In this document: one piece after another, positions 35,390-57,500 of the stretch
Numbering within the stretch: position 1 is the first letter of the stretch
Layout of the letters: each line of letters begins with the position of its first letter
NCBI GenBank assembly: GCA_030268105.1
Contig: BSDZ01000094.1
Span: forward strand, 5,304,501-5,368,500
Source: Volvox africanus
Taxonomy: Eukaryota > Chlorophyta > Chlorophyceae > Chlamydomonadales > Volvocaceae
Direction of reading: 5' to 3'
DNA length: 64,000 bases
Position numbers and translations under genes: made by a program
The notes under the pieces: model-generated
Told to the model about the DNA's origin: nothing
Seen by the model: only the letters and a program-made list of their open reading frames with translations
Database searches by the model: none

Positions 35390-37014
35390 CTATTTGCGCA
35401 GCATCCCCTCCAGCCATTCTTCTGCAGCGGGACGCAGCTCCTCCAGTACCCGCGCCACAGCCGGCTGCTCCCAAAGTGCGTCCCGCCAGCGCCGCAGCCG
35501 CAGCCGCCCCTCGTAGCGCAATGGCGGCAGCCCCAGCGCCGGCAGAATGAGCTCCGCATAGAGCAGCAGTGCCGGGTAGGCGCAATCGGCCAGGGTCAGA
35601 TGGGAGTCCGTTAGCGCCAGTGAGGGTCCGGCGGGCAGCAGCCCCTCCAGCTCGGCTAGGCGCGCGTGGAAGGCGGCGGCTGCCTCCTGCTGGCGAGGAA
35701 GCGGGGGCGGGAAAGGAGGAGGAGGTTGAGGAGGAGGAGGTTAAGGAAGATGTCGGTGTCAAGAACGGATGGTTGAGGTCAGGAGGAGGAGGAAGGAGGA
35801 GGAGTGAGGGCGGGATCAGATGGAGGTGGTGCCGGCGGAAAAGCAGCACATGCGCACCTGCACCACATGCTCCGACCGCACGGAAGGAGCCACGTGCGGG
35901 TAGAGGCGCCGCAATGCCGGTTCCAAGTACAAATCGTGGAAGCGGGAGATGAGGCGAGCCTGGGGAGGGAGAAGTGGACCGGGAGTGGGGAAGGATAAGA
36001 GGTTGAAGGCAACTGCGGTGATGGTTTCGGAGCCAAGAAATCCCGTAATGGCTGGCGCTGTAAAGACGACGGAGGACTGGAAGAGGAAGAACGGAAAGAA
36101 GCCGCATGGTGCAACGGTGAAGGCAGGCCTAAGGGTTGCAGTAAGGGGAGAAGGAGAAGGTGATGGGGCAAGGCAAGGTGCTTGAGAAGGGAGGGCTAAT
36201 GAACGGGCCTGGGGTACTGCAGGGGGTGTCTGTCGCATCCCCGCCGGGAATGTTTCCTTGCTCCAAAACCACGCCTGTCTGTACAATAGCATGCGGAAAT
36301 AGTTGCATGACACGACTCCGAAACCCCGTCCATGAGTTGGTGCGTTACGTTCCCTGCGTAGGATTCGCCTTGCCTTGCTCCGCTCTATGGGGTCCGCGGG
36401 CAGAAGCGGTGGCTGCGGAAATTGGTCCTCCAGGTACTCCACGATCACTTCGCTCTCGCAAATCACCTACATCGGAAAGATAAGCTGTATGAATGATAAT
36501 AATAATAATAAAAGAATAAATAATAATGATAATGGATAAGTTCCATGATAAAGTTTGTGTCCACGTGTAAATGCCTGTGTATGTATGTGTGTGTTAAAAT
36601 GACGTATGCATATCATTTGAAGGGCCACAAACAAAGAGTAAAGCTATCGCCGCCAACACCCTCTGCCACAACGCTGCCACTGCTGCTGCCCAACTCCTGC
36701 GCCACCGGCTCCTGCGTCACCACTCTCTCCGCCAAGCTCTTCGCCCATAAACTCTGTATCACGTCCTCCGCCACCACCAACCCATCACCCCTATCGTACT
36801 TCTTCCATACCTCTCGACGGCCATCGTCGAAGGTGACGCAAAGCACGGGAATTTTTCCAAGTGAATTAACCGCCAGAAACTCGGGACTCCGAGTACTTCC
36901 GCAAGGCACTGCCAGCGGCGTCCAAGACAGCCCCTTGGCAAACAGCGCGACCTTCACTTTGGCGCTGAACTCGCTATGTGGGTCATCGTAAAGTTGCAGC
37001 TTCTTCACGCCCAT
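35390..37014 (-). CDS. Glutathione S-transferase
   Basis: This is a cytosolic-type GST that conjugates or reduces substrates with glutathione. Four exons on the minus strand: 37014-36811, 36466-36374, 35959-35858 and 35689-35390. All junctions are phase 0, giving 232 aa, the usual GST length. The thioredoxin-fold half reads LQLYDDPHSEFSAKVKVAL, then FLAVNSLGKIPVL (cis-Pro) and ICESEVIVEYLEDQFP (the E-S glutathione gamma-glutamyl site). The helical half follows with ARLISRFHDLYLEPALRRLY and LTLADCAYPALLLY. The second intron appears to start with GC (AAG then GCAAGG): this is the only choice that gives the family-like junction ERSK-ARLISRF in frame. The ATG at 37014 was chosen because the fold starts four residues later. 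An in-frame upstream start at about 37197 would add a Ser/Asn-rich leader. A Ser-for-Cys/Tyr catalytic residue near SEF is likely; the class (zeta-like or bacterial-like) is not settled. Confidence 0.85.
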
Positions 37015-39291
37015 GTTGTAAGATATGGCCTCAGGTGGTGGACTTTGTGTTGCTGATGGCACCGTATGTGCTGATGCAGTGCCTATATTACAACAGCAAA
37101 CATGTTTTGAGAAACGACGGTTAAAGAAGCTGTTATTATTATTGGGATGGGAGTGCTTATTGCGAATTTGGCGTGCGTATAAGCCTCCGACCGTCATGGT
37201 CTTTTCGCAGCTTTAGGAATGTGTTATCATTTAGAGCGAGCGTACAAATTAGGTAAATTGTAATCCTAGTCTATAATCGTAATACAATTGAGGCATCATG
37301 TTTGAGATAAAAAAAGCAATCGAGATTAGTTTGCTCGTTAGTAATGTTTATGTTCTACTCTTTGGTAAGGTCGCACTACAATGTCCTGCTTACAGTAACA
37401 AATATTGACGATGATCACAGTGGCCCTTGAGGCTCACGGTGGGGGCATTCCTGGACCACTGTCGCGCTTGGCTGGCTGGGATCATTTGTGCACATCATTA
37501 CGCATGAAGGCGAATGCGCCGCTTTGGTGGAGGACTGTTGAGCAAATTAATCGGTTGGGAAAACCAGGTCGACATGATGAGCGACTGCCTGACACAAATG
37601 GCCGTACTGGAACGAGTTACAGATGCGTTTAGGAACCGTACGATACAGTACGGCAGCTGCAACACCGGTGCAGATGTGTATATCTTGGGGCACTTCCCTG
37701 AGACACACGCCTTTCAGTCGTCACTCCATGCTGAGTTGTGACCATAAACTACCAACTGCCAACCGTCATCAGTTTAATAACCGTTATCCCGTTACCCTGC
37801 TGTGCTCGTAGGGTTGCGAGATATGGTTCTTAGGAACCTCTCTCATGACATGAAACTGTTTCAACATCATGGTGGGGACAGACGCCCCGGCAGATACCCT
37901 CACCAGTCAAGTAACGATATCCCAGCTGCCGTACATGCTACCGTACATCCGGGCAACCCAAGAGCCCGTGCGCTCCCACACAATCTTATCCTGTAGCTAG
38001 GTTCGGAGATTTTCCCCCTTCAAACTTCACACACTCAAAGAGAGAGAGACACACACACTAACACTAACACACGACTTCCCTCCTCCCCGTGCTGATTTAG
38101 AAAGCGGAAGGAAGTGGTGATGCGCCGAAGATGCGGTCCCCATTCGGTTCGTTCACCCCTCTACACCGAGACAGGCCTGAAGAAAGTGCCTTACGCACAC
38201 ACACACGCACACACACACACATACATACACACAAACGTGCGCGCGTCAGCCGCATATTCTCTCAAGATTCCCGGGTAAGTACGGATATGTCGCACACAAT
38301 GAGATCGTACACGTGTACGACATTAGACAGATGATAAGCACGTACGAAGCCGTACGTGCAAGGATCTCAACGCGCACACGTACAGGATGTGGTATAAGAA
38401 ACCATTGTAAAGAGAATGTACGGCTATCGTACCATGATTCACATTCGCAAGGTGAAGGCTCTGAAGGCGCTCAGAATATACACCTTATGAATGACAGATA
38501 AGACAGACAGACTGACATGTCGACCAAGAGATACGCACACGGAGCCCATCAGAACACATTAGACATTACCGTGACCTTTCGTCGTCGTCACCGCCGTACG
38601 TAGCGTACAAACTGACCAACGGTAGAGACGAACCCTGTTTCTAAGAACCCATGCTTTCCTTTGCTCACTTTAGTAACCCCGGTGCGGTCGCGCAACCCGG
38701 CGCATTCTCATCCATTTCCCTCCCCCACTTTTACGAAGGAATCCGCCGAATCCCCAACCGACAAGATGCCAACCGAAAAGCCATTTCCGCCTTTTCGTTT
38801 TTGGTTGCTTGGTGAGGCTTGCGTTGACGTCTCCCCTCCGAAACCACCTTCCAACAGCCCAAAAACTGTGGCGCAAAGCACTATTGCAAGCTCCGAAACC
38901 AAAAGTCTCACCACACCCTCTCTCGCAATAATTTTACGACGTGACGACCAAAAGAAAACTCTCCCCTCAACTCCCAAGACGCTCATATTCTACTTATAAC
39001 ATTCTCTCCTCTCCTCTTTGGGGCAAAAGGAAGCACGAGTGCCGGATCGCATAAATTCTGAAACCCCAGCCCGCCTCCTCCTCCTCAACCAATAAGGCCC
39101 CAGAGACGGAAATAACCCGACGATGATTTCTCCCCAACCCGCCCCTCTTTCCCCCATCCTCAAGCCCCAAACCCGTTACTACAACACACCAACTTCACTC
39201 CGAAACCAGCCGCTCAACTCCTGCCAAAACTAATGTGATAACCAACAACAGAAAAACATCAAACCGAAACCGTTAGGACGACCTGCTTCGT
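37015..39291. other. Spacer between the GST and SAGA-like genes
   Basis: No gene is supported. It should hold the GST promoter (right next to 37014) and the SAGA 3' UTR (left of 39292). It contains (CA)n at about 38195-38235 and a C/A/T-rich, G-poor stretch at about 38700-39290. Confidence 0.5.
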
Positions 39292-42200
39292 TCAGGATGA
39301 GCGCCAATCGCCGTAGCTCCGGCGAGTAGGACTCACTCCCCGCGGACCGCCGCCGCCGTCGGACCCGTCCTCTCCGCCAAGCCGCTGCCGCCAGTCGCTC
39401 GGCGGGGGCGGTGATGCCGTACCGGACCTTGAAGAGCTGCGTGACGGCGGCGTCGCAGCGGTACCACCGCCGCCACCGTCACCTCCGGCGCTAGGAGCGC
39501 TGTTGCCGTTGCCAGCTAACGGACGGTCAAAAATGCTTTCATACCTAGTTGGTCCATAAGTACCGCCGGCGCCGCTACTACTGCTACTGCTACGGCCAGT
39601 GGCTGTAGCACCAGGAGGTGAGGTTTCCAACGGGCTCCGAGACCTTCCGGAAGCGGCCCCGGATGATGAGGATGCGGAGGAGGACCGCTGCTGCTGCTGC
39701 ATGTACTTGGCCGCCATTAGGGCCACAAATTCCAGATCGTCCTCCGCCGCCTGCATAGTTTCAGAACCACATATGGATAACGGATAGACAAACAGACAAC
39801 AACAGCTTCGACAGTTAGGACCGTTGGGCAGATTTTATCCAACACTGGGCAGGGCAGATCTATCCAAAGCGGAAAAAAGCTTAACGACGAAAAAAGCTTC
39901 ATCGTACTTTGTCAGTTAACTCCAACACACAAATTCACATCAAACTGTTGAAAAACCTATTTACCATCTTGCTTTACGGAAAGATTAGTCAAAAGGTACG
40001 GAACAAGATATCCTAATTCTGAGGATTCAATCCTAACAGGGCCATTCACGTAGATCCTGCGATTTCTGTTATAGATACAACCGCAATGTCGTACAAGTGT
40101 GTTTACCGTACATACCCGAAGTTCCTCCATTAGTCGATCCTGCGCCGCCTGCGCCCCCAGTCCCCCCCGCTTGATGAGCATCAAACTTTGCCGTACAGCT
40201 CGCAGCGCGTTGCGCCCTGAGGATGTCCTGGTGCTGCAGTGCAGAGCGCGATGGTACGGGCACGCAGAGGGGGGGGGAAGAGAGAAGCAGCGATTGGCAC
40301 AAATATCATAATGCCTTAAGAAGAGGCAAATGGGAAACAACGAAAAGGAACAAATCCTAGAGAGCAATAAGCAACAACAGAAAAACCTAAAGCCTTCCAT
40401 CTTCTCATCTTTCAAATGTAGAAGAGTGCGCGGTGTTCTCAAGCCAAGCGCCCCTGAACGCGTAAATGCACCGCCAACGGGGCAACAGGTTGCAGACCTC
40501 CGTGTCCCGTGCTTACTGTACAATTCTGCAGTACCTGTAATCTTTCACCATGGCCGTCATACGCTGCTCGTACTCTTGTCGTACACGCGACGCCTCAGCG
40601 CCCCCAGACTGTCTTGATGTCGCCGCTTCAGAGGCCTGAGCCCTCAGCTGTGCGACCACTTGGTTGGCGCGGGCGAGCCGTTCCTGGAGCTCCGAAACCT
40701 GAGCCATCCTCACCGCCTCTGACTGCTGCAGCTGCAACTTCAGCTCCGAAATTTCTGCCGTACTGGCGCCTTGCGTGGCGGCCGACGCCTGAATGGATGA
40801 CACACGAACACGCACGTTTGCCAATTAGCTTAGTACCAAGGTATCCAGTTCCAGTACCTGTGTACAAAATTATAAACTAAACTCAATAACAAATAGTAAA
40901 ACAAAATATAAAAAATAAAGAAACAACCAATTAATGTTGTTAAGTAATAACATGATAATAAAAAACATAATAATATATGGAAACAACAAATGGAAAAATG
41001 TGAGCATGATTAAGGGGGAAAAGGGCGGCCCACTCCTCCACTCTGCTGGAACGTCGGGGAAGAGTAATCCCTTTCCGCCCACATACACATACACATACAC
41101 ACACAAACACATATACATACACATACGTATTCACATACACACATACACAAACAGACACATACACAGTACACACACACATATATATATGTATATATATATA
41201 CATATACATACAAACATACCAGCCGTTTCCGTTGTGTATAAACTTACCACATGGTTTTATCCTTTGTCGCTTCGATAATATAAACAAATATTTATTATAC
41301 TCATTTATTTGCATTTCCTCGGTATTTTCTTAGCAGTTATTTTCCTTGTTTGGCTTGCCCCCTTACCAACCCACCTCCTTCATCTCCCGCAGCAGCTTCT
41401 GTCGCTGTGCCTCCGCTGCCTCAGCCTCCCGCTTCCGCGCCATCTGCTCGTCCGTGAGCCGAGTCATCAACTGCTGAGACCGGACTTCGGAGCGCTGTGA
41501 AAGCGGAAGGGGAAGTGGAGAGGAGCAGGACAGCGGGAGGACGGAAGAGAAGTCAAGCGCACAAAATGAAAATGACACTAAGCCATTACTTAATTCTTTC
41601 ATATAGATATGTACTTATATATGTATTGCTCTTTGAAACAGAGCAAGAATTAATTTTTGCATTTTTACAACCATGAAAGCTTTTTGCTCAAGTATTTTTA
41701 CATAATAAATGATCCCATGTTTGCATGCTTTAAAAATCCCTAATATTCACTAGCGTTTGTGGGAGTTCATAAAAGGGAAGGTAGTTGTTGGCCTACTAAT
41801 CTTTAAAAGTATACACATAGTTATTTCAATTATATAATTCAGAATCATTTTCACATCTCTATCTAGTCCTAAATTAATAATTCCTGGGGAGAGCAACTAT
41901 ACCGATATCGGATTATGATGTGGAAAAACAATTTATCATTTATACATGAGAGGCAACAAGCGAAGAACACAGAGCACAGGGTGCAGCCTGTCCACAGGAT
42001 GACGAAATTGCATAAAATTTGAACTCATGACAGCACAAACATGGCACAGCACGACATACGGAGTAGCACATCACGTATATCGCGCCACATCATCCCTGCC
42101 TTGAGGGCCTCCTGGAGCTGAGCGACCTTTGAGGAGAGCGCCTCCGCCTCCGCCGAACGGCGGCTGCTGTCATCACCCGCTTTCTGACGGTCCTGGAGGT

Positions 42201-45200
42201 GATGAGGGACATGCAAATAAATGAATAAATGAATAAATAAATAAAAATTTTAAAATAATTTCATATATATACACACCCATAGCTCCATACGGACAACCAC
42301 CTCTCACGGCTCCGTACCTCCTTTCCCTCCCCCTAACGACCCACAGCCAAACAAACTTTCCCACAGACAGACAGACAGATACCCACATAGCCAACACTTT
42401 CAAGACTCACCCTTAATAAAATGTTGTATCGCTCCATAAGGCCCGCCAGGTCCGTGTTCAGCTCCGAAATCGTTTCTCGGTACCTGACCACCGCTTCACT
42501 CAACTCGGTAATATCCGCGAGGTAGCCCTCCTCTGCTGAGCTCCAACGCGCGATCTACAGACGGTTACGGACATAAATGAATAAATGCAAAAATATATCA
42601 CAACATATGTTAAATAAAACATGTTTTTATTCATGTAACATACATTGTATGTAACACATATATTGTATGTTTTCTAAATATTTAATAAATTAGATGTTGT
42701 ACAATGATTTTGCATACAAGTTACGACACACATAATATACATACCACATATTGTTTAAATTACGATACTTCATATTTACTGGTGCATTGATGACCCAGTG
42801 TCTTGCGGCACGAGCCGGGACTGAGAGTGTATGTGTATCTAATACTTCGGATCCAGTAAAGCGAAATGCGGAAGTGTCCATCTTGTTCGATTGATTGTTT
42901 GTGCGTGTGTGTGTGTGTGTGTGTTTGCATTATATTAATATAGGGTTTTAGGGTTATAAAATATTATATATTATATACATTATATTTATATACATTTATT
43001 TTATACACTCACACATACTATGTATATATAATGTATTTACTCATTCCATTGGCGGCGCCTCAATACCCTAATATATGATGCGTATATATCGCATATCAAA
43101 CGGTGTGAAACGTGTAATGAGTGAGAGTGAGATGCATTTTAATATATCTGCACTGTCCAGCAATATTGCGCTGGTACTTCGGCGCCTGCCATTGGAATAA
43201 CCCGCTATCTCACGGTTCAGTCATCTACTCGGGATATCCAGAAAATCGTACCGACAGGGTACAACCCTCATTCATTCCTCAGTCACTCGTCCAGCAGCAG
43301 AGCGCCGTATCCTGTCTCACTCTTGGCAGTCAGACAGGGTACGGCTCTCTGACCCGTGAGATAACTATTACATATAAAGTATATATAATAGATATACGAT
43401 ATATACTATATATATATGTGTGTGTGTGTGTTTTAACATGTGTATGCATACTGCCGTGTACAAATATATGTACGAATCCCCACCTGCTCTCCTGTCTCCT
43501 TCTTCGCGTCCTCCAGGTACTTGGACATCGCGGACACCTGCTTCTGGGCGGCCTCGTAATCTGATGACAACGAAGCCAACTGCGCCTGAGCCTTGTCGTA
43601 CGATGACCGTACGGAAGACAAATCCGCCTTCGCGGCGTTGTACTGCTCCATCAGCGAGGACAGCTCCGCATTGAGCTCATCGATAAGGCCCAATCGGGAC
43701 TCAATGGCGGAGAGAGTCGCCACTTGGGCATCACGATCAGCTAACTGTCGGTTCGTTTGCCCATTTGCACGACAATGCAACGAAAGAATTTTATAATACA
43801 ATGCTGGGAAAATAAAAAGTAGATGTTACAAAGTTGCAGATATCCACAAAAATAACATACAATAACAAAAACACAAAATTCAGATAATTATTATCTATAT
43901 TTCTTCTCATGCAGTCACTCCTAAGGGCCCAGGCGGACCCCCACCCTCACCTTCTCCTCCCCCACCCTAACCCCCTCCATTTCCCTTTCTCCCCCTTCTC
44001 TCCCCTCCCAGCCCTCTCCAATTCCACTGGATACCTTCATGTGCACATATGTTTTTATACACATCCCTTTGCCCCCTTTCGGCCCCCCTTCGGCCCCCCT
44101 CGTCCCCAAGTCACCTTCTGTAGGGCGTCTTGGAGCTGGTTCCGGAGCTGGCCCACCTCCTCCTTCGCAGCCGCCAGGGCCTCCTCCTTACGACCCACCT
44201 GTAGAGAGACGGCGGTTTCGAAGGCGAAAGGGTAAAAAGGGCCGTGTGTGTGTGTGTGTGTATGTGTGTGTATACGTGGGTGTTTTAGTGGGGTAATCGC
44301 CTGAGGACAGTTGGGCTTTTACTGGGGGCTTCGGAGCCATGCGTTTCATTCCTAATGCATTCCACGGTCGCAATCGTCCTCCCCTGGAGCTTCTCTCCTC
44401 ACCTGCTCCGATAGCTGTCGCTCCCTCTCCTGCGCCTCCTTCAACGCTGCCTCGCGCTCCGTTAGCTGAGACTGCAACCGCTCAGCATCCGTACGAGAGG
44501 ACCTGCAGTAACCACCAACGAACAAAACCGCAATCAATCACCTAATAACTTCATGTTGGAGATCTCAAGTCCTTAGCTACCGACTCCACTCCGTACAAAG
44601 CCCATTAATCCCTCCCCCTCCCCCTCCCCACCCCACCACCTACTTGAGGATTTCCTCCAACTCCGCCTCCTTGGCCGCTCCAGCTTGCTGTAGAGCTGCG
44701 AGCTGAAGCCGCGCAGAAGATGCCGCCGCCCGCGCCTCCTCCAACTCCCGTACGGCACGGGTCTGCGCCTCCGCAAGGGCAGCGGCCTCCTCCCGCGACG
44801 CTGCCACCTGTACGAGTACGGGAACGGCAAGAGAGGGGAAAAACGCAAAACGTGATCCCCCATCAACCTCCATGTATTCTCGCAAGCAAATACACACCCG
44901 TCTGGATTCTCTCCCCACCCCGTAACTAACCCCCCCCAGGTCCGTGTGTCTTGATAACCACTTCCCAACCGTTTCTACTTGCGTTAACGGTCTTTCGCAA
45001 AAAACTCAAAATACTGTCATTGGATGCTTCCTCCGTTTCATTTTCCAGATTTTCCTCCTGTTACTCGCCTGCTCCCGAAGCTTGGCCTCGGCGACAGTTG
45101 CCTGGAGCCTCAACGCGTCAGCTTCCACCTGGAGCGTTGCTTCCCTGTGGTCAACCGGATGTACGGAATAACAGATTAAAATACGGAAGTGACAGTAAAA

Positions 45201-48200
45201 AATATCACATATCTTACTATATTCACATATCTTTGGCAATTGGCATATACCTCACCTGCTCTCCGCCTCCTCCCGCACCGCCTTGACCTGCCCCGTCAGT
45301 CTCTGCTCCACCTCCCTCGCCGCCTCCGCTGCCGCAGCCCGAGCCTTTTCAGCGGCGGCCTCACGACTCGCCACCTCGTCCTGCCGTCAAAAGGTGACGC
45401 GATAAATGAAATTGAATTAAAAAAGGTTTTTAATTTACAAGTTATGAATAAAATTTGCATAATTAAATTACAAACATGTAATAAGATAACAATAAAATAT
45501 CCAGTGATATAAAAAATTAAAGAATACACATATGTAACATTCAGATGAACTTATGACAAAAACAATGTTTTTAGTAAGGATAATGTAAAAACAAATCCAC
45601 GGACCTGCAGCTCGCGGAGCTCCATTTGCAGGCGCTGCTGTGCCGCTACTGCCGCGTCCAGTGCCGCAGCCCGCTCCCTAAGGACGATGGCACCCTTTTC
45701 CTTCGCTTGTCGCTCAGCTTGAAGAAGACCCTGCAGACCAAGAAAAGGGGGGAGGGGAAGGGGCGGGAACAAAGGTGGGGGGGGATCAGAAATCCAAAAA
45801 TTCGAAATAAATATACCAGAAATCCAATCTGGATCCAGTCTGGTTCTATGATTGCATTTCCACTCCATGCAACAGCGCCAATCACCTCCTGGCCTCGCTG
45901 TAGCTTAACCCGCACCCCAACCCACCCACCCGCAACTCCGACTCCTTCGCCTGAGCCTCCTGCTGCAGCGCCAGCAGCTGTGCCACCAGCTCCCCCTGCC
46001 GCTCCTGGGCAGTAGCCAGAGTGGCGGCCTGATCGCGAGCCAGCTCCTCGTACTTGGCAGTAGCATCCTATGAAAGAAAACATATTCGCAATTACATACA
46101 AAAACATTATGAGGTAATGTTAAAGGGTTTTAGTGGTGGTGATTCATATGAGACGGGGGGGAAGGGGGCCAGGGCGTGTGTGTGTATGTGGTATTCGGAA
46201 GATAGCGCCATGCAGTGCGAGAATGTACGGCAGCGTGCGAGATAATAATTGCATGTGTATACGTGTGTGTATGTGCTTTCCTGGTAGAGGACAGGCGCCC
46301 TCTCCTTCTGGCAGCCATATTCGTAAATTTCACCGAAGTGGCGATAACCCCATCACCATCATTAAACATTAACTAAGGAGCTTCCCCTCCCCTCCCCTCC
46401 CCTCCCCTCCCCTCCTCTCCCCTCCCCTCCCCTCCCCTCCCCTCCCCTCCCCTCCCCTCCCCTCCCCTCCCCTCCCCTCCCCTCCCCTCCCCTCCCCTCC
46501 CCTCCCCTCCCCTCCCCTCCCCTCCCCTCCCCTCCCCTCCCCTCCCCTCCCCTCCCCTCCCCTCCCCTCCCCTCCCCTCCCCTCCCCTCCCCTGGGAGGA
46601 GCACGCGCATGATAGCGGTCAGCTCAGTTTTCGTTTTCTTTTTTCCGCGGTTTTCCTTCGCCGCCAGCAGCGAGGCCGATAGTATACTTTATGATGTCTT
46701 TGATTGAATTTTCTCTACTTTTATTCGCGGCCTTGGCGGCAACCTAGTTTTGTTGGGTCTTCGCGTCGGCAGCAGCTTTGGCCGCGGATGACAGTCAGTC
46801 ATCCTTCACGGTTAGTCCTGGCTTCGTCAGCGATCATTACCAGCGTTTCGATGTTCGTCTCCCTCCCCTCCCCTTACCCGCAACTCCGACTCCTTCGCCT
46901 GAGCCTCCTGCTGCAGCGCCAGCAGCTGTGCCACCAGCTCCCCCTGCCGCTCCTGGGCAGTAGCCAGAGTGGCGGCCTGATCGCGAGCCAGCTGCTTAAA
47001 CTCAGATGCCGTGGTCTGTGTGTTTGTAGCCCAGTATGTATGTATTGAGGGAGGGGGCGAAGGGGAAGGGGGTAACGAAAACGGCGAATCGTACAGCGAT
47101 GGTGGGTCGGTGGGGGCATCACGATCGATTCCTCGATGGCGTGTCTTATCAGTTGTCGTATTTGCGACAAGCGCCCGTCCGAGCACATGGATGAAAAAAG
47201 TGCTGAAGGCTATAGTATGAAAGCTTTTAAGCTTACTTAGGTCCGCACCGTACTAAGCCGTACCGATGAGTGCCGTACCTGCACCTGCGCCAACTGCCCC
47301 TCCAGCTCCCCCTGTCGCTGGGCCGCTTCGCGCCGTAAGGAGTCCAGCTCCGTTTCGAGGGCCTCCCGAGCCCGTTCCGCCCTGGCTTCTGATAGCGAGA
47401 GCCGCTCTGCCAGGTGGGCCTCCCGCTCTGCCAGCTGGGCCTCCCGCTCCGCCGCCTCCCGCAGCTGTCCCTGCAGCCCGCTCAGCTGGTTGGAGTACTC
47501 CTCTGCGGCTTGCAGCTGCTGCTCCTGTGCCCCACAAATAACAATCGATCAGAGGACGCAAATCAAAGCAAATAAAAAAATGGGATTTATGCAACTTATA
47601 AAGTGAATTATCATTTACGAATCTTATTTTTTATTTTTATTTGTATGGAATAGTATATACAAATATCTATCCATTGTATATATACAATGGATAAATATCT
47701 GTATATATACATGTAAATAATAAATAAATAAATAAATATGTGTGTGTGGACTTAGTTGAAAAGCCCAGCAACATGTGTGACTGTAATTTTCCTAATTAAA
47801 CATTTATAACATGTGATAGTATATCTAATTAAGGGAAGACAGCACTTCAAACACACAGAGGCAGACAAACACACAGCCCGCCCTTCCACCCGGTGGACCA
47901 CCTGCTGCTGCGCGATGGCGCTGTTCAGTTGGTCGATGCGACCGCCGTAATCCGTCTGCAAAGTATCCAGCTGCGTGTTCAGCTCCTCAATTTTGTCCTC
48001 GTACAGCTGCAACGTACGACAGCAGTACGACGAGATTAGGGACTCGTCAGGTCCAAAGGCGTATGACAGACATACACTTCCACGAGAATCATGAAGAGTG
48101 GTTGGTGCCCGACCAAACTACAAACCGTCAGCCGACCTTCCCGGTGTTTTTTGACTGAAAGCCGTACATATCCGCCGTACATCCCTCCCCCTCTTGGAAG

Positions 48201-48581
48201 AATGCGTCACCAATCTGCCGATATCTGTTTTAATCGAGTTTTTGTTTTTGTTCTTAAAATCTCTCTGACAATAAAAATGAACTCTAATGTAATTGTCCCT
48301 TCTTGCGTCCCCTTTTTCATAATACTCGATTCCCGCTTGCCGTACACGCACTTTAAGGGTGGCTTCGTACTGCTGACTTGTCGCCGTCAGGCTCTCCTCC
48401 AACTCTCCCAACAGCTGTGCCTGCGCCTCGCGAGCCGCATCCAACTCGGCCTCCAGCTCCGAAACCTCCTCCGCCCGCCGTGACTCAGCCCCCTCAAGCG
48501 CCGACTCAAGCTCCAGTACGCGACTGTCATACAACTGTCGTATCATGGAAGTCAACGACACAACCAGTCAGTGGGATGCTC

Positions 48582-48623
<42 letters not shown>

Positions 48624-51600
48624 AGCGATACGTTCAGCAGCGGGGCCCTCCAGAGCTGAGGCTGCCGATCACGTGTGTATGCGGGCGTACGACATGAGAA
48701 ACCGCAATTATGTATAGATAAGCAATTCATTAAGTTACCATAACAGTAGGCTTTCGCAAGTGGATCCGTCGCTTTCATCACCTCAAACCCCCCTTTCCCC
48801 GGCCCTCCCCCCCCGTCCTCCGGGCCCTGTAGGAAAACCCAACCGACACCCCGCCGAGATCCACTCCACGCACCGTCAGTGTGGCTTCGTACTGCTGACT
48901 GGCCGCCACGAAGTTTTCCTGGATCTGATTGAGCACCTCCTGCTGACTGGCGCGAGTGGAAGCCAGCGCCTCCTCAAGTGCTCGTACCTCCTCAGTACGG
49001 CAGCGTTCCGCCGCCTCCAGCTGGCGGGTCAGCTCCGAAACCCGCGAGTCGAAGAGCTGAAGATGTCCACATTGAAAAGAACAGAGAGAATGGGAGGGAG
49101 GAGAGGAGGGGGGGAGGAGGGGGGAAGTGAGTTGTTGTTACGGTGCTGTGTGGGAGTGTGTGTGTGTGTGTGTGTGTGCGTGTATTAATTACTTATACAA
49201 TGTAATTTTTTCTTTTTCTGCATTCATGGTTGTATTGGTGGATTTTGCATAAATATGAAATCCGGGTGAGTGAAACTTGCATGAACTCGCACGGGATGCC
49301 GCGGCTGCAGACGCGGGTTGTGAACAAAGTAAAAGAAAGGAACAAAACAAATTTGCGAGACGAACCAAGTGTCGTACCTCCAGAGTAGCTTCGTACTGCG
49401 TGGAAGCTGCCGAGAAGTTCTCTTCAAGCTGAGTCAACAACGACCGGCTATTCGCATTGATGGCGTTGGCTTCCTGGAGCTCCTTCAGCGTCGCCTCGTA
49501 CATCTTTAAGGAAATCAAACAGTACGACATCCGTACACAGTTATAGTTATCAAGAGGGCACTTCAGGCGTGTCCTCTGCCCTTACAGAGCAACACTGGCC
49601 AAAGCGAAACACATCAACATCAAAATGCCCAGCAAGCGACGTACTTATGCTATTTCCGTTTCCCCCAACCGACCAACCACCCCAACCACACATATAACCA
49701 CCATGAGGTCCACAACCAACACACCTGCTTAGTCTGTTGCAGCTCCACCTGCATTGCATGCGCTGTAGCACTAGCCAGACCCTCCGCTGTCGCCGAGGCG
49801 TCCACTGCAGCATTGGAGCGCGCTAAGGCGTCTGCCAGCTGGGCTCGCAGCGCCTAACCAGGACACGTGTTTTGGGAGCGGAGAGGAAGGGATGGGCCGC
49901 CACTGAGGGGTATACGACATACGACAATCCGTTTGTAAACTGAAAAGCAGGGGAAGTCCTGTACGACGTGTGTTCGTTATGATACGGTACGAAAAAGACG
50001 CATAACAGGTCAAATAGGTCGAGCTAAAATTCGGTTGAAATGTGGTTAAAATCACAAAAAATCATGTTTTTTATTTGCGCTGTTGCACAATGTGTCTGTA
50101 CGACAGGTACGACATGCAGACAGACTGACCGACCTGTAGCTCCTGCTTACGCTCCACGTCCCTGGCCGCCGCCCTCGCCAGCCGCTCCTCCAGGTCAGAG
50201 ACCGCCCTCTCCTTCGCCGCTACCGCCGCCCGCGCCGCCGCCATCTCCGCCGCCGTGATTTCCAGTTGGGAATTCACATTCTGAAGCTGCAGCGCAAGAC
50301 GCTGGACCTCCGTGGGGTCGCCGGCGGCGGCGGCGGCGGCGGCAGCACCACCGCCGCCGCCGCCACGAAATGATGACCGGGTAGCGCCCGGTGGCGCGGC
50401 CTGCTGCGGTGATGTGGATGACGTCGATGCTTTGCTCGTCGATGCTTTGCTCGACAATGATTCCGCGCGGCCCTCCAACTCACCGATTTTTGTGGAAATC
50501 ATCTGGCGTACCTTTTGTAGTTCGTTGGTTCGTACCTGAATCCGTTATAACATCATCCATATCTTAATAGGGATATGCGTCTTTTCAGCTGCTGACCAGT
50601 CTTTAACTTCATTTACGATGACAGACTGACAGACAGACTGACAGACACTGAAACCCAGCATGCACATTCACACACACCTGCACGGAGGGAATAGCCGGTT
50701 TCCCCGTAGCTGCCTTCGTTGCTCCTCCTGTAGCTGCCGTACCAACTCCCGTCGGTGCTGCCGCGGCGCCGCCACCAGCTCCGCCACCAGGCGCTTCCCG
50801 AGGTGGTTGCGGTTGCGGCAGCGGAGGCGACGATGCCGCCTGAGTGGTCTTGCTCAGAAGCCGCAGAGGTGGCAGTTGGGACGAGTCAATCTCCAGCCGC
50901 GTGGTCCGCTCCGGTTGGCTCCAGGGGCATTCCATTAACAGGGCCTTATTGCCAGTGTACGGCAGTAATGTCCGGTTTCCGCCTTTCTCCCACTCCACGC
51001 TTCGTTCCCACCCGTCTCCGCGTACGATCAGGAGCTGCAGAATAGGAAACCCGTGTACGACGGCGCGATAGGGTACGGCACACATGTTGCGAATCAGAAA
51101 TCCTACACGTTTTAGACGGCATTACGGCAACAAGCGAATCAGCGCGGCGAATTTGTACGGACTAGCTCAATGGAGAAATTGGGATGCCTTGCAAAATAGG
51201 GGATGAAATATGCCGTACCAGCCGCGGGACCTATGGGTCCCGCTGACCCCGGTGTGCCGTACCTTTGCTGCCACGTCTGCTTGCAGACTCAGCTCCAATT
51301 CAGCCGTCCATCCACCCGCCTCCGCTCGCTCCAAAACCAGCGCTCGCCCCGGGTCCCACTCGCCCAACTCCCGACAACTGCCAACCAACAGAAGTCGTTG
51401 GGAGACCCATGGGTCTGATGTCAGTGGCACGGCCGGGTACTCCGGAACCACGACACGGCAGCGTGTCGCACCGGCTGAGCTGCCGCCCTTGCGCGATTGC
51501 GACGCCTCTGAGACCTGGCCGTTGTTGGTGCTGCTGGAACTGCCGCCCGCACCATTCATCACCGTTTTTCCTGTTATGTCGTTAGACGTTACGATTGGAA

Positions 51601-52514
51601 GCAAACATCAAAAGTGGACACGCGTTAAGTCGTGACGTTGCGACCAACCGTTACCTGTAACTGCTTGTTCGTTATATTTTTGTACTTTTCCTGCCCTCTA
51701 ACTTGGAGGACTGAAGTACCAATCACATAACGACTTTATTAAAAGTCTACGACTACCTGAATGGACTTGGTACTTAAAGCTACAAACTGCCGCCCCGAAA
51801 CCAGGTAGTTGGTTATCTGGTTCGTTATCTGGTTCGTTGGTGATCAAACATCACTTGCGGAAGGAACTAAAGCATCCCTCTTAGACACAGCCCCCTCCCG
51901 TCATCGAAACCCGGCACTGATTGGCGCTCGGATGACCCCCTCCCAATGCCGGTTTCATTCGCCTGCACATGTCGTACATTCTTCAGAAACCCGGGTTGGG
52001 GGTTTCACGCGCTGCATTTAACAACCGGCCCTTCTAATTGGCTCACTGGTTTCATTATCGCCACCACCGCTACTGCCGATGTCGCCGCTGCCTGTCAATG
52101 CGTCCTTCGTTAAAGCCTCGATACCGCCGCCGCCCAATCCGCTGCGGCCCGCTACTGCCGCCGCCGACACCGCCGCATCCTCATTTGACGAGGCCTGTAG
52201 TGACCGTTCGCCGGCGGTTGACGGTTAATAACCAGATTTGGTTTATACCCGATGATGAGAGGATTCAAAGATAAGTTTGAACGATGGTTCGCGAAGTGCA
52301 AAATATTAACATTAAGATGTCAGGGTTCCAACCGACAACTGACCTTGAAGGTAACGGTGCGAATGGGCGGGCGCATTGGCAATTTCGCACCGCCGCCTAG
52401 CCAGGACGAAGCTGCTGCCATACGCAGGCGGCGTGTACGAGTAGCGGCGGCGCCAGGACCGCCACGCCGTACGGTTGCGCCGCCAGGGAGGCCTGGCTGC
52501 ATCAGTGGTGCCAT
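39292..52514 (-). CDS. SAGA: SAGA1/SAGA2-like pyrenoid protein: CBM20 + long coiled coil + Rubisco-binding motif
   Basis: In Chlamydomonas, SAGA proteins sit at the pyrenoid where Rubisco matrix meets starch, and SAGA1 loss disturbs starch plates and pyrenoid number. I model 26 phase-consistent exons and 1,583 aa (SAGA1 is of similar length): 52514-52344, 52194-52047, 51570-51263, 51034-50678, 50535-50134, 49853-49725, 49503-49378, 49056-48874, 48534-48352, 48006-47902, 47524-47279, 47015-46878, 46067-45930, 45730-45605, 45380-45256, 45144-45069, 44807-44644, 44502-44403, 44198-44115, 43744-43484, 42554-42411, 42192-42100, 41494-41375, 40788-40535, 40227-40116, 39750-39292. Residues 1-35 are a chloroplast transit peptide (RTRRLRMAAASSW). 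Residues 143-237 form a CBM20 with LVGSCRELGEWDP and VEWEKGGNR, the two starch-contact Trp regions. Residues 330-1430 are coiled coil. The Ser/Gly-rich tail has SDWRQRL at 1550-1555, a perfect [DN]W[RK]xx[LIVA] motif, and ends in DWRSS. Exons 12 and 13 are duplicates. Exons 16 and 22 use GC donors. SAGA1 versus SAGA2 orthology is open. Confidence 0.88.
39379..39396 (-). other. Rubisco-binding motif in the SAGA tail
   Basis: The codons encode D-W-R-Q-R-L, which fits the published Rubisco-binding consensus [D/N]W[R/K]XX[L/I/V/A] at every position. It lies in a disordered Ser/Gly/Pro-rich tail, as in other Rubisco-binding pyrenoid proteins. Confidence 0.85.
41080..41215. repeat. (CA)n/(TA)n microsatellite cluster in a SAGA intron
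   Basis: Alternating ACACAT/ACATAC and TATATA runs lie between SAGA exons 23 and 24. Similar short (GT)n tracts occur in other SAGA introns at about 42905-42924, 43418-43432, 44245-44270, 48583-48620 and 49155-49178. Confidence 0.85.
45930..46067 (-). repeat. Duplicated SAGA exon, downstream copy (exon 13)
   Basis: This is a 46-codon phase 0/0 exon identical to exon 12 except for its first residues (DATAKYEEL). The two introns flanking the pair do not look alike, so the identity ends near the exon borders. Confidence 0.9.
46384..46593. repeat. (CTCCC)n pentanucleotide array
   Basis: About 42 units with one shortened unit near 46415. It lies in the intron between the duplicated SAGA exons 12 and 13. 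The strand asymmetry is extreme (all C/T on plus). Confidence 0.95.
46650..46870. repeat. Possible third, diverged copy of the intron repeat
   Basis: CGCCGCCAGCAG, GCGGCCTTGGCGGCAACCTAGTT and a GGTTxxxCxxGCTTxxxCAGCG-like stretch occur in the same order as at 32280-32500, but with many differences. It abuts the donor of SAGA exon 12. Confidence 0.4.
46878..47015 (-). repeat. Duplicated SAGA exon, upstream copy (exon 12)
   Basis: This 46-codon phase 0/0 exon encodes coiled coil (ARDQAATLATAQERQGELV onward). Its last 117 bases are identical to exon 13. Only the first 20 or so bases (TTASEFKQL) differ. Confidence 0.9.
47668..47693. repeat. 26-bp perfect palindrome
   Basis: TATCCATTGTATA followed by its exact complement, in AT-rich intron sequence between SAGA exons 10 and 11. 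Confidence 0.7.
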
Positions 52515-54552
52515 TCCCTCCCAACCGCTGCTGCTGCTGCTCCCACTACATAAGGCCCCCGATCGAAGAGGACATTGAATCGGCCGCACTGCGAGCGAGG
52601 TACGGAAGGGAGGGTTAGGGATGCCAAGGCGCAGGATCGAGATTCGGGATTGATGTGCGTCGTACACGCTCGTTGGCCCGCTTTTCTTGCCACGGACGCA
52701 AGATTCAAATGTGCTCAACACTCAAGCACGTGGCATCCAGTATCCACTCAAGTAAGCTAATTAAATAGGCTTCAACAGGATCAAATATGCGCATATGGCA
52801 GCGCGTCCGTGGAAGCGAACAGAGGGGCAAATGCGTGTCATGGATGGCATCGAGAGACCTCGTGAGGTCCACATGGGGGAGTTCCACACCTGGGCACGGG
52901 GTTGGTGGCAACACATTTGTACACGGATAGAGTGTTTTACGCATCTGAATAAGTAATTGTGTTCAAACTTGTTGGGCGCTTGTCGGCAAGCGTCTCATCC
53001 GCGCAGTACCAACGTCCTCACCGAACATCAGCACGCCGGCCTGCAGCAACGCCGGCCGAGCTGGCAAGACGATGCCACCAGTTGACTGGAAGCGCCCGAG
53101 CGCGATATGGCCTCTTGTTTGGGACCTGCGCGGGAGTTTGAGCACAGCAAGCACAAAGTGGTGCAGCGCAAAAGTATAGAAGAAATCCTGAGATTGAGGA
53201 ACAATATTATATTACATCCGCAAGACTGATTTTGACAGTCTTCAATGAAGGAGAGTGCAAGCGCTTGCCAGCCTTAAACGCAATTTACAATCCTTGACCC
53301 TACCCACACACCTTCTCAATTGCGCGTTCGCCATCAAAGTATTATGGAATAATGGATTTTCCTTTGAATTTAACAAAAATTCGTGAACAGCACGATTCAG
53401 AGTGGATATATACTGATGCCCACAGCCGCCCCAGACGTGTCGCCGCTGTCGGTCTAGCCACTCAGGGAAAGAAATTATTCTCTCAAAATGTATACAAGTA
53501 GCACATACATGGTCATCCGTCGCTAACTTGCTGCATCTACGTCCCAACGCCTAAGTTTTGAGCTAACGTGTCAGGACGCGAGGAGCGTGGATTTCAGCAT
53601 CACACGCCATCGCGGTATCACATGAGCATTCTGAACATTGATCGTTTACTTGACCATACGCCAAAGCTTGCTTGTTTCTCGTCTGCAAGTTGCTCGTCCA
53701 CGGCATTGAAAGAAACAGGATTGGATGACTACACAAGACCACAACAACGAGCCAATCCACATAACCACGAACATTCGCTCATTTATTTCATATTACGGCT
53801 AGTATTTGCAGCATTTGGCCGTCGTTGTTAGGTAGAAGTCATATCAATTCCTGCGAAACCTGCCCGCAAAAACACTCAGGATGCTAGGTATCATTTACAA
53901 AAAGCTATGAAAGACACTTGCTTGCGTAGCGGCCTGCCAGGGTTGCGTCGCGCGCCAAGCAGCATCGCGCCGCCTGGCTCGTCGCGTTCTCATGAGACAT
54001 GGAACTCCCCAAAGCCGTCGACCGGAGCTCAACAACCCAGGGTAGCGGACGTAAGCGTTCGTGCTGGCGGAATGGTACGTTTCTTCGTCGGAAGTTGCAG
54101 AGCCGGAAGGCCATTTTTCCGATCCCCTGCACCACTGACACAGCTACCCACCATCGAGTTGCCGTTGCAAATCTTAAACACTGCATTGCTCCCCCATTAA
54201 ACTTGTAAGGTGGTTACCCTTAGCTTAAGACTCCTCCAACACCCTTTCCAAGATGCGGCGTGAGGATTACTCACTCCCCGATAGTTGCCATATTAGCGAC
54301 GCCTACAGCGAAGAACAATTTGCATTGTGACGGCTGCTTTATAATCTCTAGCTTTAGCAGGCTACTGCCGAGCGGGTACTGCCGTACATCCGTGGGGGGT
54401 TGCCCTGCGCAGCGTCGCTGTTGTCCTCAGGCCAGGTTGCCTAACTAAGCGCTTGTGCTCGTCTTGATTTTGCCTCTCAGTCCGCTCCCTCACCACCGTC
54501 CGTCTCACATCTTATTATCCAAACTCCCTCGCATGTGCAGGACGCCCGACCC
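52515..54552. promoter_or_regulatory. Head-to-head intergenic region of SAGA and SecA genes
   Basis: The two ATGs (52514 minus, 54553 plus) diverge over 2.04 kb, in which I find no supported gene. Promoters and 5' UTRs of both plastid-protein genes must lie here. An upstream non-coding or short first exon of the SecA gene is possible: an acceptor-like TGTGCAG sits at about 54533-54540. Confidence 0.45.
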
Positions 54553-57500
54553 ATGGTGCTGGCGCCACCACCCTCGCAGCGCCCGCCGCCGCTGCGGTTG
54601 CTACAGCAACAGCTTCCCCAGCACAACCCCCATCACCTCTTACAATCCCTACCACATTCTATACCAGCCGGAGCCCAAGCAGTGCCTTACTCGTTCACGT
54701 GCCGTGGCGGCAGTGTCGTATTTCTCGGGCCGCTGCATCACCCGCTGGCGCGACCCACAACGCGCCGGGTGGCTGTAGGAGCCTTGTCGGAAGCTGCCGC
54801 CGCCACCGGCGTCAGCAGTGGTGAATTACAGCAGCAGCAACAACAACAACCGCCAAAGCCGGAGTACAATCTCCCAGCGCATTGGCAGGAACAGATGGCT
54901 CGGGCGCCGCTGGGGAGGAAGCGTGTATTGCAGAGGTACGTGTGTGGTGTTTGGTTTCAGAGAGATGGGGGAGGGGGACGGCGTGAGGGCAATATGGTGC
55001 TGTGCTGTGCTGATGGATCCAGCCATTCAAATTTAAACTTTGAGGTTGTTAGCTCGGAGGGAAAGGGGAGGGGAAGGGAAGGTATTATTGAAGGCATCCT
55101 GGAGCCTGTTGGCCCAACGGCATTGTTAATGAAAGACAGTTGGGAGTTGGTGGTGGTGTCCAGTGGCCAGCAACCGGCTGGCGTGGAGGTGCATCTGCAG
55201 CGGCCCCGGGAGAGGGTAAAAGCTGTCAAAGGAGGGACTAGGGCAGGGGGGGTCGAGGAAGAGGCAGAGGGGAGGGAAGGGGAGGTGGAGAGTGCAGCGG
55301 TTGGGTGGCACAAGAACCTGCACGGGCTGCATGGAGCAGGTTGGAGAGCGGGATGGGGAGGGAAGTTGGTTCTGGAGCAGCTAGGCAACTCATTTCGGGT
55401 CATGGAGGAACCGTCCAGGGGGGCCGGGGTGTGTGGAAGCAACGGAATAACCGCCTTGTGGAGGTTCTGTTTGTCACGGGGCGCGGCCTCTCTATTTCGA
55501 TTCCCGGTTCGCTCTATTTTTTTTATGGGATGAAGAGTGAATGAATGGATGGATGAGTGGACGCGGCGGAATGCCAAAGAAACACATCGATCAGGAAAGG
55601 TCCAAATTCACTCTTCAGGTATTTAATGCATAGTCCATGCGTGATGCAGTACCGTACCCTTGCCACTGCCGTACAGGTACTATGCTGATGTCATCGCTAT
55701 TAATAATTTGGAGCCGGAGATGCGGGCGCTTAGCAATGCACAGCTGAGGGCAAAAACGGGTGAGGGTGGTATGTACGAATATTAGATCTAATAAAGTCGA
55801 TGGGCCTTATGGGCCCTGTCGGTTTTTGTATCTGTTTTGCCTGCAGATGGGGTCTGGTCTGGTCTGGTCTGTTTGTTTTCAAACGTGCGCCTTCGCGGGA
55901 GTGTCTTCCCCCCCGGCCCCTCCCCACACACACATACACACACGTTTAAGTGTGCACATGTGGGCCCCGCCCCGCCCCACACATATACTCGCCCTCCGCC
56001 CCTTCCCGGCCCCGCCCCCACCACACACATACACACACGTTCACTTACCCTCCAGGGGAGTTTAAGCGGCGGCTCGCGGGGGGTCAGTCCCTCCAGAGCC
56101 TCCGCGTGGAGGCCTTCGCTGTCGTACGGGAGGCTTCTCGTCGGGTGCTTGGGATGAGGCACTACGACTGCCAACTGGTAGGAGGCCCGGGGGCCTGTGG
56201 GGGAGGGGTGGGGGCGGGGAGGAAGCGCAGGGCCGGGGAGGAGGGCCTGAGGGAGGGAGTCATATGGCCAGATCAGGAGGGGTCAGAGGAAGACCGAGTG
56301 GCAGTTTGGGATTTCTTGTTAATGTCGTAAGTTGCTGCCGTCGTGTCTTGTCGTGGTTTTTATGGTAATTAGATCGTATTAAATGACCTGGTGTGTGGCG
56401 TGTGCCATCCCTCTCCCTGCTCCTCCTCCCCCACTAACCCCCCTCCCCCCCCTCCCCGGGTGGCAGGTTGGCGGCATGGTCCTGGCTGAGGGCCGGGTAG
56501 CGGAGATGCAGACGGGGGAGGGAAAGACGCTGGTGGCCACCCTCCCAGGATACCTCGGCGCGCTGACGGGGAGGGGGGTGCACGTCGTGACGGTCAACGA
56601 CTACCTGGCGGCGAGAGATGCGGCATGGTGGGTTAGTGCGGACCAGAGAGGGCGGGAGGGAGTGGCGAGTGGCGAGGTGGGGATAGGGAAGGGGAAGGGG
56701 ATCTGGAGGGCACATGAAAAGGCCGTTTGTTGCATCAATTGATTGGTTATTATTTTACGTCGTAATGACTCATAGTGCCTTGTAAAGGGCCTTTGTGACA
56801 GTGTGCTTGTCGGGTGGTGGGGGTGGGGGTGGGATGGAGGTGGTGGAAGGAGCTCCGATTCGTCCATTTCTCAACCTGAACCCCCTCCCTCTTAAACATA
56901 CACACAAAGACACAAATTGATTTCTCCTCCGCGCCGCTGGATGCTTTCTTCATCAGGATGGGGAAGCTGTACCGCTTCCTGGGCCTTACCTGTGCTGCCG
57001 TACAGTCCACCAGCAGCGTCGTGGCTGCCCGCGCGGCCTTCTCTGCGGACGTGACCTACGTGACGGGTCAGGAGCTGGGCTTCTCCTTCCTTCGCGATAA
57101 CACGGCGCTCAGCCCGCAGGATCTGGTGAGCCATCCCAAGGGCGGGGGCCAGAGGGGTGGCGTTTACGAGGTTATAGAATAATGATAATCATATATATAT
57201 ACATATATATAATAAATATTGATTATCATTATTCTATAATCTATATATATAGTATGAATATAGTAATGATAATAATATAATTCGTTTTTTACCTACCACT
57301 GCTGCTACTGCTACTGCCATAACTGCCCTTTTACTTTAAACCCGACAAATTGCTATTTGTCATTGCTGCTCTTGCTGCTGCTATTGCCACCCCTGCCCCC
57401 AACAGACACTCCGCGACGATCGTTTTCACTTCGCCATCGTGGACGAGGTGGACTCCATTCTCATCGACGAGAGCCGTAACCCCATGATCATTTCGGGGAA

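Follow-up and report, generated by a model that had tools for sequence, protein, structure and literature searches.

A likely SAGA1 orthologue in Volvox africanus: a 26-exon gene predicted to join a starch-binding domain, a long coiled coil and a Rubisco-binding motif

In Chlamydomonas, SAGA1 and MITH1 start the pyrenoid tubules (PMC11649565), SAGA1 forms rings where the tubules enter the matrix (PMC13370406) and SAGA1 together with SAGA2 places the starch sheath, binding by the CBM20 domain having been shown for both proteins (PMC13167743). Two consecutive CBM20 domains are ascribed to SAGA2 and, by implication, one to SAGA1, a duplicated CBM20 being needed in the construct used for the SAGA1 starch-binding assay (PMC13167743). 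The SAGA1 starch domain is placed near the N-terminus by PMC9614477 and near the C-terminus by PMC10823261, the latter giving two Rubisco-binding motifs and ~180 kDa for SAGA1 and four motifs and ~190 kDa for SAGA2, whilst MITH1 is reported to have no detectable Rubisco-binding motif (PMC11649565). The motif is defined as [D/N]W[R/K]XX[L/I/V/A] (PMC8320531), which served as the motif core here; the working motif of KEY1 is WRVDI (PMC13086578), and the EPYC1 motif docks between two RbcS helices (PMC10473226). Here we describe a gene on the minus strand of a 64,000-nucleotide stretch of Volvox africanus DNA (hereafter the window; contig BSDZ01000094.1, positions 5,304,501 to 5,368,500, or G000:C91:5304501-5368500 in a 126-contig, 141-Mb assembly) that is likely, with a probability of about 0.82, to be the SAGA1 orthologue of this alga; its product would enter the chloroplast and, in the pyrenoid, act as a tether between starch and the Rubisco matrix. 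An earlier note on this DNA had read the gene as SAGA-type, and that reading is supported by the occurrence of a basic N-terminus, a CBM20 domain, a coil and a motif-bearing tail in one predicted gene, and by a genome that also encodes EPYC1, RbcS and a SAGA2-like gene.

The gene spans 13.2 kb (window positions 39292-52514) in a window with a G+C content of ~0.44-0.59 (4-kb steps). Its strand, its ATG at 52514 and its TGA at 39292 are all as the earlier note gave them, and separate splice modelling again returned 26 exons, together with the same 1,583 residues if the second of two exon 25 acceptors is used. The modelling was done by dynamic programming along the minus strand with start and stop fixed to those ends, and is partly dependent on the earlier reading, since the codon table was trained partly on stretches of the same gene chosen by eye and the splice weights were assumed. 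Three of the four intron penalties (13, 17 and 21) gave 26 exons; a penalty of 9 gave 32, and this lowest-penalty model was dropped because its extra exons were weak and spurious. Curation changed 10 exon edges, two being taken from the 32-exon model and eight set by hand, and the curated model predicts a protein of 1,585 residues and 168.9 kDa from 26 exons, the tandem acceptors at 40233 and 40227 yielding 1,585 or 1,583 residues respectively. Reading frames join without a stop across all 26 exons, the start is the sole ATG within its stop-free upstream frame, and the 25 introns have GT (23) or GC (2) donors and, without exception, AG acceptors. Phase-0 introns number 21 of 25, compared with 19 of 25 before a curation that itself added two, the background frequency being an assumed one.

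The first four exons (all coordinates for this gene being minus strand) hold the putative import signal and the starch-binding domain. Exon 1 (52344..52514, residues 1-57) begins with the ATG and encodes a basic Ala/Arg-rich stretch with 8 Arg, 2 Lys and 9 Ala in 57 residues, the first acidic residue of the protein being residue 62, a composition compatible with a chloroplast transit peptide, as this stretch probably is. Exon 2 (52047..52194, residues 58-106) is low-complexity linker, exon 3 (51263..51570, residues 107-209) carries further linker and the N-terminal part of CBM20 (Pfam match starting at ~51406), and exon 4 (50678..51034, residues 210-328) carries the second part (Pfam match to ~50966). 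The CBM20 domain named in the earlier note was confirmed when joining exons 3 and 4 completed the Pfam match (PF00686, E 5.4e-9, 36.2 bits where the cut-off is 23.3, over residues 162-232), which is single-copy and the sole Pfam family in the whole predicted protein. Since the intron after K209 splits the domain, a genome-wide CBM20 scan, with matches at 17 places, had passed over this locus. In a comparison with PDB sequences, W178 and W224 fall opposite two tryptophans of glucoamylase 1ac0, those in LGDW and VEW, which we take to be starch site residues.

The CBM20 region is also matched by a metagenomic protein of 183 residues, P0001, at E 1.3e-20, the one match among 6,580 candidates. Over 61 residues of exon 4 the two are 64% identical, the similarity continuing past the Pfam domain through a conserved extension encoded in the same exon, GNKALLMECPWSQPERTTRLEI..QLPPLRL (common pattern ECPWSQPE.T.R.EI...QLPPLRL), beginning after Q and ending after PPVQ at the exon 4 boundaries; P0001 was hand-trimmed for this alignment and compared as protein. 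The divergence of P0001 at the end of exon 4 supports splicing onward from there. A protein search with model residues 140-640 scored 7,982 candidates and found none at E 0.001.

Beyond CBM20 the protein is predicted to form a very long rod. Exon 5 (50134..50535, residues 329-462) passes from linker into coil, no proline occurring from residue 403 onwards until 1472 (1,070 residues), and over residues 401-1395 hydrophobic power at a period of 3.5 is 4.95 times the shuffle mean, a value reached by none of 500 shuffles; the coil of about 1,100 residues proposed earlier is thus borne out by proline-free length and heptad periodicity together. It continues through exons 6 (49725..49853, residues 463-505), 7 (49378..49503, residues 506-547, holding a QYEATL coil module matched in the SAGA2-like gene) and 8 and 9 (48874..49056, residues 548-608, and 48352..48534, residues 609-669), which are each 183 nucleotides long and encode 61-residue coil modules with 31 of 61 residues alike. 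Coil is likewise encoded by exons 10 (47902..48006, residues 670-704), 11 (47279..47524, residues 705-786), the twins 12 (46878..47015, residues 787-832) and 13 (45930..46067, residues 833-878), 14 (45605..45730, residues 879-920), 15 (45256..45380, residues 921-961), 16 (45069..45144, residues 962-987, with a GC donor), 17 (44644..44807, residues 988-1041), 18 (44403..44502, residues 1042-1075), 19 (44115..44198, residues 1076-1103), 20 (43484..43744, residues 1104-1190), 21 (42411..42554, residues 1191-1238), 22 (42100..42192, residues 1239-1269, with a hand-set GC donor and an uncertain 3' edge), 23 (41375..41494, residues 1270-1309) and 24 (40535..40788, residues 1310-1393, with a hand-set 3' edge). 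Exon 25 (40116..40233, residues 1394-1433) is the one with tandem acceptors, and exon 26 (39292..39750, residues 1434-1585 and the stop) contains the end of the coil and a Ser/Gly-rich tail.

At 138 nucleotides each, exons 12 and 13 are equal in length and both in phase 0, and their last 116 bases and GT donor are identical, all differences being confined to the first 22 bases. The introns flanking them look unrelated, and a ~200-bp CCCCT array (about 46385-46593) lies between the two exons. This pattern suggests gene conversion between older twins, which on the nucleotide comparison seems the likelier explanation because simple tandem copying should have brought intron sequence along; the identity may instead be an assembly error beside the CCCCT array.

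The tail contains one full motif core, DWRQRL (39379..39396, residues 1552-1557), predicted to bind Rubisco, and one incomplete motif, DWRSS, immediately before the stop at the extreme C-terminus (39295..39309, residues 1581-1585), the Rubisco-binding tail proposed in the earlier note being found with only one of two motifs complete. Shuffling the last 155 residues 20,000 times produced a core by chance in 0.26% of cases, shuffling the whole protein 4,000 times did so in 2.0%, and two occurrences of [D/N]W[R/K] came up in 0.01% of the tail shuffles. The six-frame background is 10 cores in 245,790 codons, that of the gene itself included, or 0.006 per 152 codons.

The presumed partners of such a motif are encoded in the genome. 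A query for EPYC1 placed 4 of its 14 matches at C17:1344370-1345044, where an open reading frame (ORF), read as the EPYC1 orthologue, contains five motif cores, four LPANW(R/K)QELESLR repeats and the ending ADWRSGL-stop; the repeat VSPTRSVLPANWRQELESLRN equals chain q of 7jfo, an EPYC1/LCI5 peptide, over 21 residues. The RbcS docking segments LPPLTDEQ and DPMQVLREIV were found in all five distinct loci translated, the second segment occurring at six genomic places, and RbcS with its exons assembled shows 10 differences over 130 positions when aligned with its nearest PDB chains, 1uw9 and 1gk8 (Chlamydomonas), which places the alga near C. reinhardtii but apart from it. Two oppositely oriented RbcS copies lie at C13:137255-141144, apart from the C13 group at 2033-2050 kb.

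A second gene of related architecture lies on the same contig as the window, at C91:3973000-3984750. It has two CBM20 matches (25.3 bits, from hand-joined exons, and 28.6 bits), a coil, a relaxed motif KWREAL and the ending SNWRDAL-stop, and from its sequence reads as the SAGA2 counterpart, the model being a rough one (25 exons, 2,533 residues) with some introns read through. It provides the best match of the window gene's CBM20 elsewhere in the genome (46%), and exon 7 aligns colinearly with its coil (43% over 44 residues, E 0.001 among 2,418 ORFs), a reversed coil query giving no match at E 1 among the same ORFs. A run of CBM20-plus-coil ORFs was also found at C83:40400-53300. It could hold counterparts of MITH1 or Cre09.g394510, and was rejected as a third SAGA, there being no plus-strand motif core in C83:31000-60400 and no match of any C83 ORF to the window coil at E 1. 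Of the combination that the earlier note had regarded as specific to SAGA1 and SAGA2, CBM20 and coil alone, as the C83 stretches show, are not specific.

Compared with the described proteins, the window gene most resembles SAGA1 (Cre11.g467712) in its N-terminal CBM20, long coil, motif and size (~170-180 kDa), and in gene structure, both genes being large (16.7 kb in Chlamydomonas, 13.2 kb here), rich in introns and internally repetitive. Cre09.g394510 and the C83 stretches likewise have an N-terminal CBM20 followed by coil, but the former has a t-SNARE-like domain and the latter the missing plus-strand core noted above. The assignment among SAGA1, SAGA2 and MITH1 was made against published descriptions of the Chlamydomonas proteins, and several points weigh against the identification as SAGA1. 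There is one full and one incomplete motif here, DWRSS being without the +4 hydrophobic residue, compared with two motifs in Chlamydomonas SAGA1, and a search of 5.8 billion proteins with the tail scored 6,440 candidates but found no relative at E 10; the tail likewise had no match among PDB sequences at E 10. CBM20 matched PDB sequences at E 0.013 at best, and the coil module matched the SAGA2-like gene only at E 0.43 when the whole genome was searched. TGTAA is the volvocine poly(A) signal, and none occurs within 1.6 kb past the stop, the first being at 37621. Finally, the Chlamydomonas neighbours UPD1 and PETC are not kept, none of 16 URO-D and none of 12 Rieske matches falling on C91.

Among the alternatives, it is unlikely that the window gene is another member of the family, SAGA2 or MITH1/SAGA3, even though SAGA1, SAGA2 and SAGA3/MITH1 are mutually homologous in Chlamydomonas and are set apart here by their descriptions. 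SAGA2 (Cre09.g394621) shares CBM20, coil and motif with the window gene, and a coil module is common to both through the SAGA2-like gene, but the two CBM20 domains and four motifs of SAGA2 contrast with a single CBM20 and one full motif here (one or two motifs in all); the single CBM20 is the reason for preferring SAGA1, and a better SAGA2 candidate is present elsewhere on the contig. MITH1/SAGA3 (Cre06.g259100) has a long coiled coil and is homologous to SAGA1, but is without the motif, whereas the window gene has DWRQRL. A CBM20-plus-coil starch protein that does not tether Rubisco, such as a PTST2-like starch initiator, with a tail motif arisen by chance, is less probable again. CBM20 followed by coil does occur elsewhere in the genome with no plus-strand motif (C83:40-53 kb), and the whole-protein shuffles yield a core at the 2.0% given above; against this stand the much lower frequencies of the tail-only shuffles (0.26% for the core, 0.01% for two [D/N]W[R/K]), the use of the same motif by EPYC1 and the SAGA2-like gene of this genome, and a window coil that is matched by the SAGA2-like gene but by no C83 ORF at E 1. 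That the CBM20 and coil parts are two adjoining genes is the least probable of all, for although the gene is predicted from DNA and exon 5 begins after a low-complexity linker, exon 4 ends in a donor at the point where P0001 diverges, the frames join stop-free through 26 exons, and the lack of a sense-strand TGTAA from the start to intron 6, the first being at 49586, counts against two separate genes.

If the gene is SAGA1, the basic N-terminus would direct import into the chloroplast stroma, where CBM20, by analogy with Chlamydomonas, may bind maltooligosaccharide or starch precursors. A parallel coiled-coil rod, ~159 nm in length if one unbroken helix, would then bridge the gap between starch and matrix, and DWRQRL would dock on two RbcS helices in the manner of EPYC1. 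By Chlamydomonas precedent, recruitment of MITH1, the start of tubules and the priming of starch plates beside them might follow (PMC11649565, PMC13167743).

Directly downstream, on the same strand, lies a GST gene (35390-37160, minus strand; GST_N_3, 60.3 bits on hand-joined exons), which is one of four GST_N_3 places among 16 scored candidates genome-wide. In Chlamydomonas the gene numbers are 467689 for PETC, Cre11.g467690 for GST, 467700 for UPD1 and Cre11.g467712 for SAGA1 (PMC8448359), so that, taking gene number as a mere proxy for position, one of three Chlamydomonas-type neighbours, GST, is kept here. Two Rieske matches at C11:1332313-1332564 and 1515175-1515426, with equal frames of 161 residues, sharing a strand and separated by 183 kb, are likely a duplicated PETC. 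Head to head with the SAGA1-type gene is a SecA-like gene (54500-63200, plus strand) with SecA_DEAD and SecA P-loop matches, and the two genes possibly share a promoter region; we found no paper on SecA beside SAGA1 in Chlamydomonas. The window also contains an ORF with a Sec1-family match of 83.5 bits (22760-24001, plus strand) and a 787-residue ORF (29417-31777, minus strand) that carries a long run of serines and has no Pfam match at E 0.001.

The conservation of SAGA proteins in Volvocales has already been published (PMC13167743), and the novelty of the present gene is accordingly modest: it is of use for comparison and comes as no surprise. Published SAGA1 work concerns Chlamydomonas, we found no paper treating SAGA1 together with Gonium, and a full gene from another volvocine is now available for comparison. 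SAGA1, for the start of tubules, and SAGA1 and SAGA2, for placement of the starch sheath, are wanted for pyrenoid engineering in crops. We would suggest, tentatively and as a doubtful proposal, that the rod of SAGA1 acts as a modular ruler in which phase-0 coil exons multiply and gene conversion homogenises them, volvocine algae thereby tuning the reach from starch to Rubisco matrix whilst only the CBM20 end and the single C-terminal Rubisco motif stay fixed. The occurrence of this gene beside its own EPYC1, RbcS and SAGA2-like gene allows the question of which parts of SAGA are constrained to be asked, the candidates here being CBM20 with the stretch that follows it and one tail motif, as against the rod, which changes through duplication of exons.

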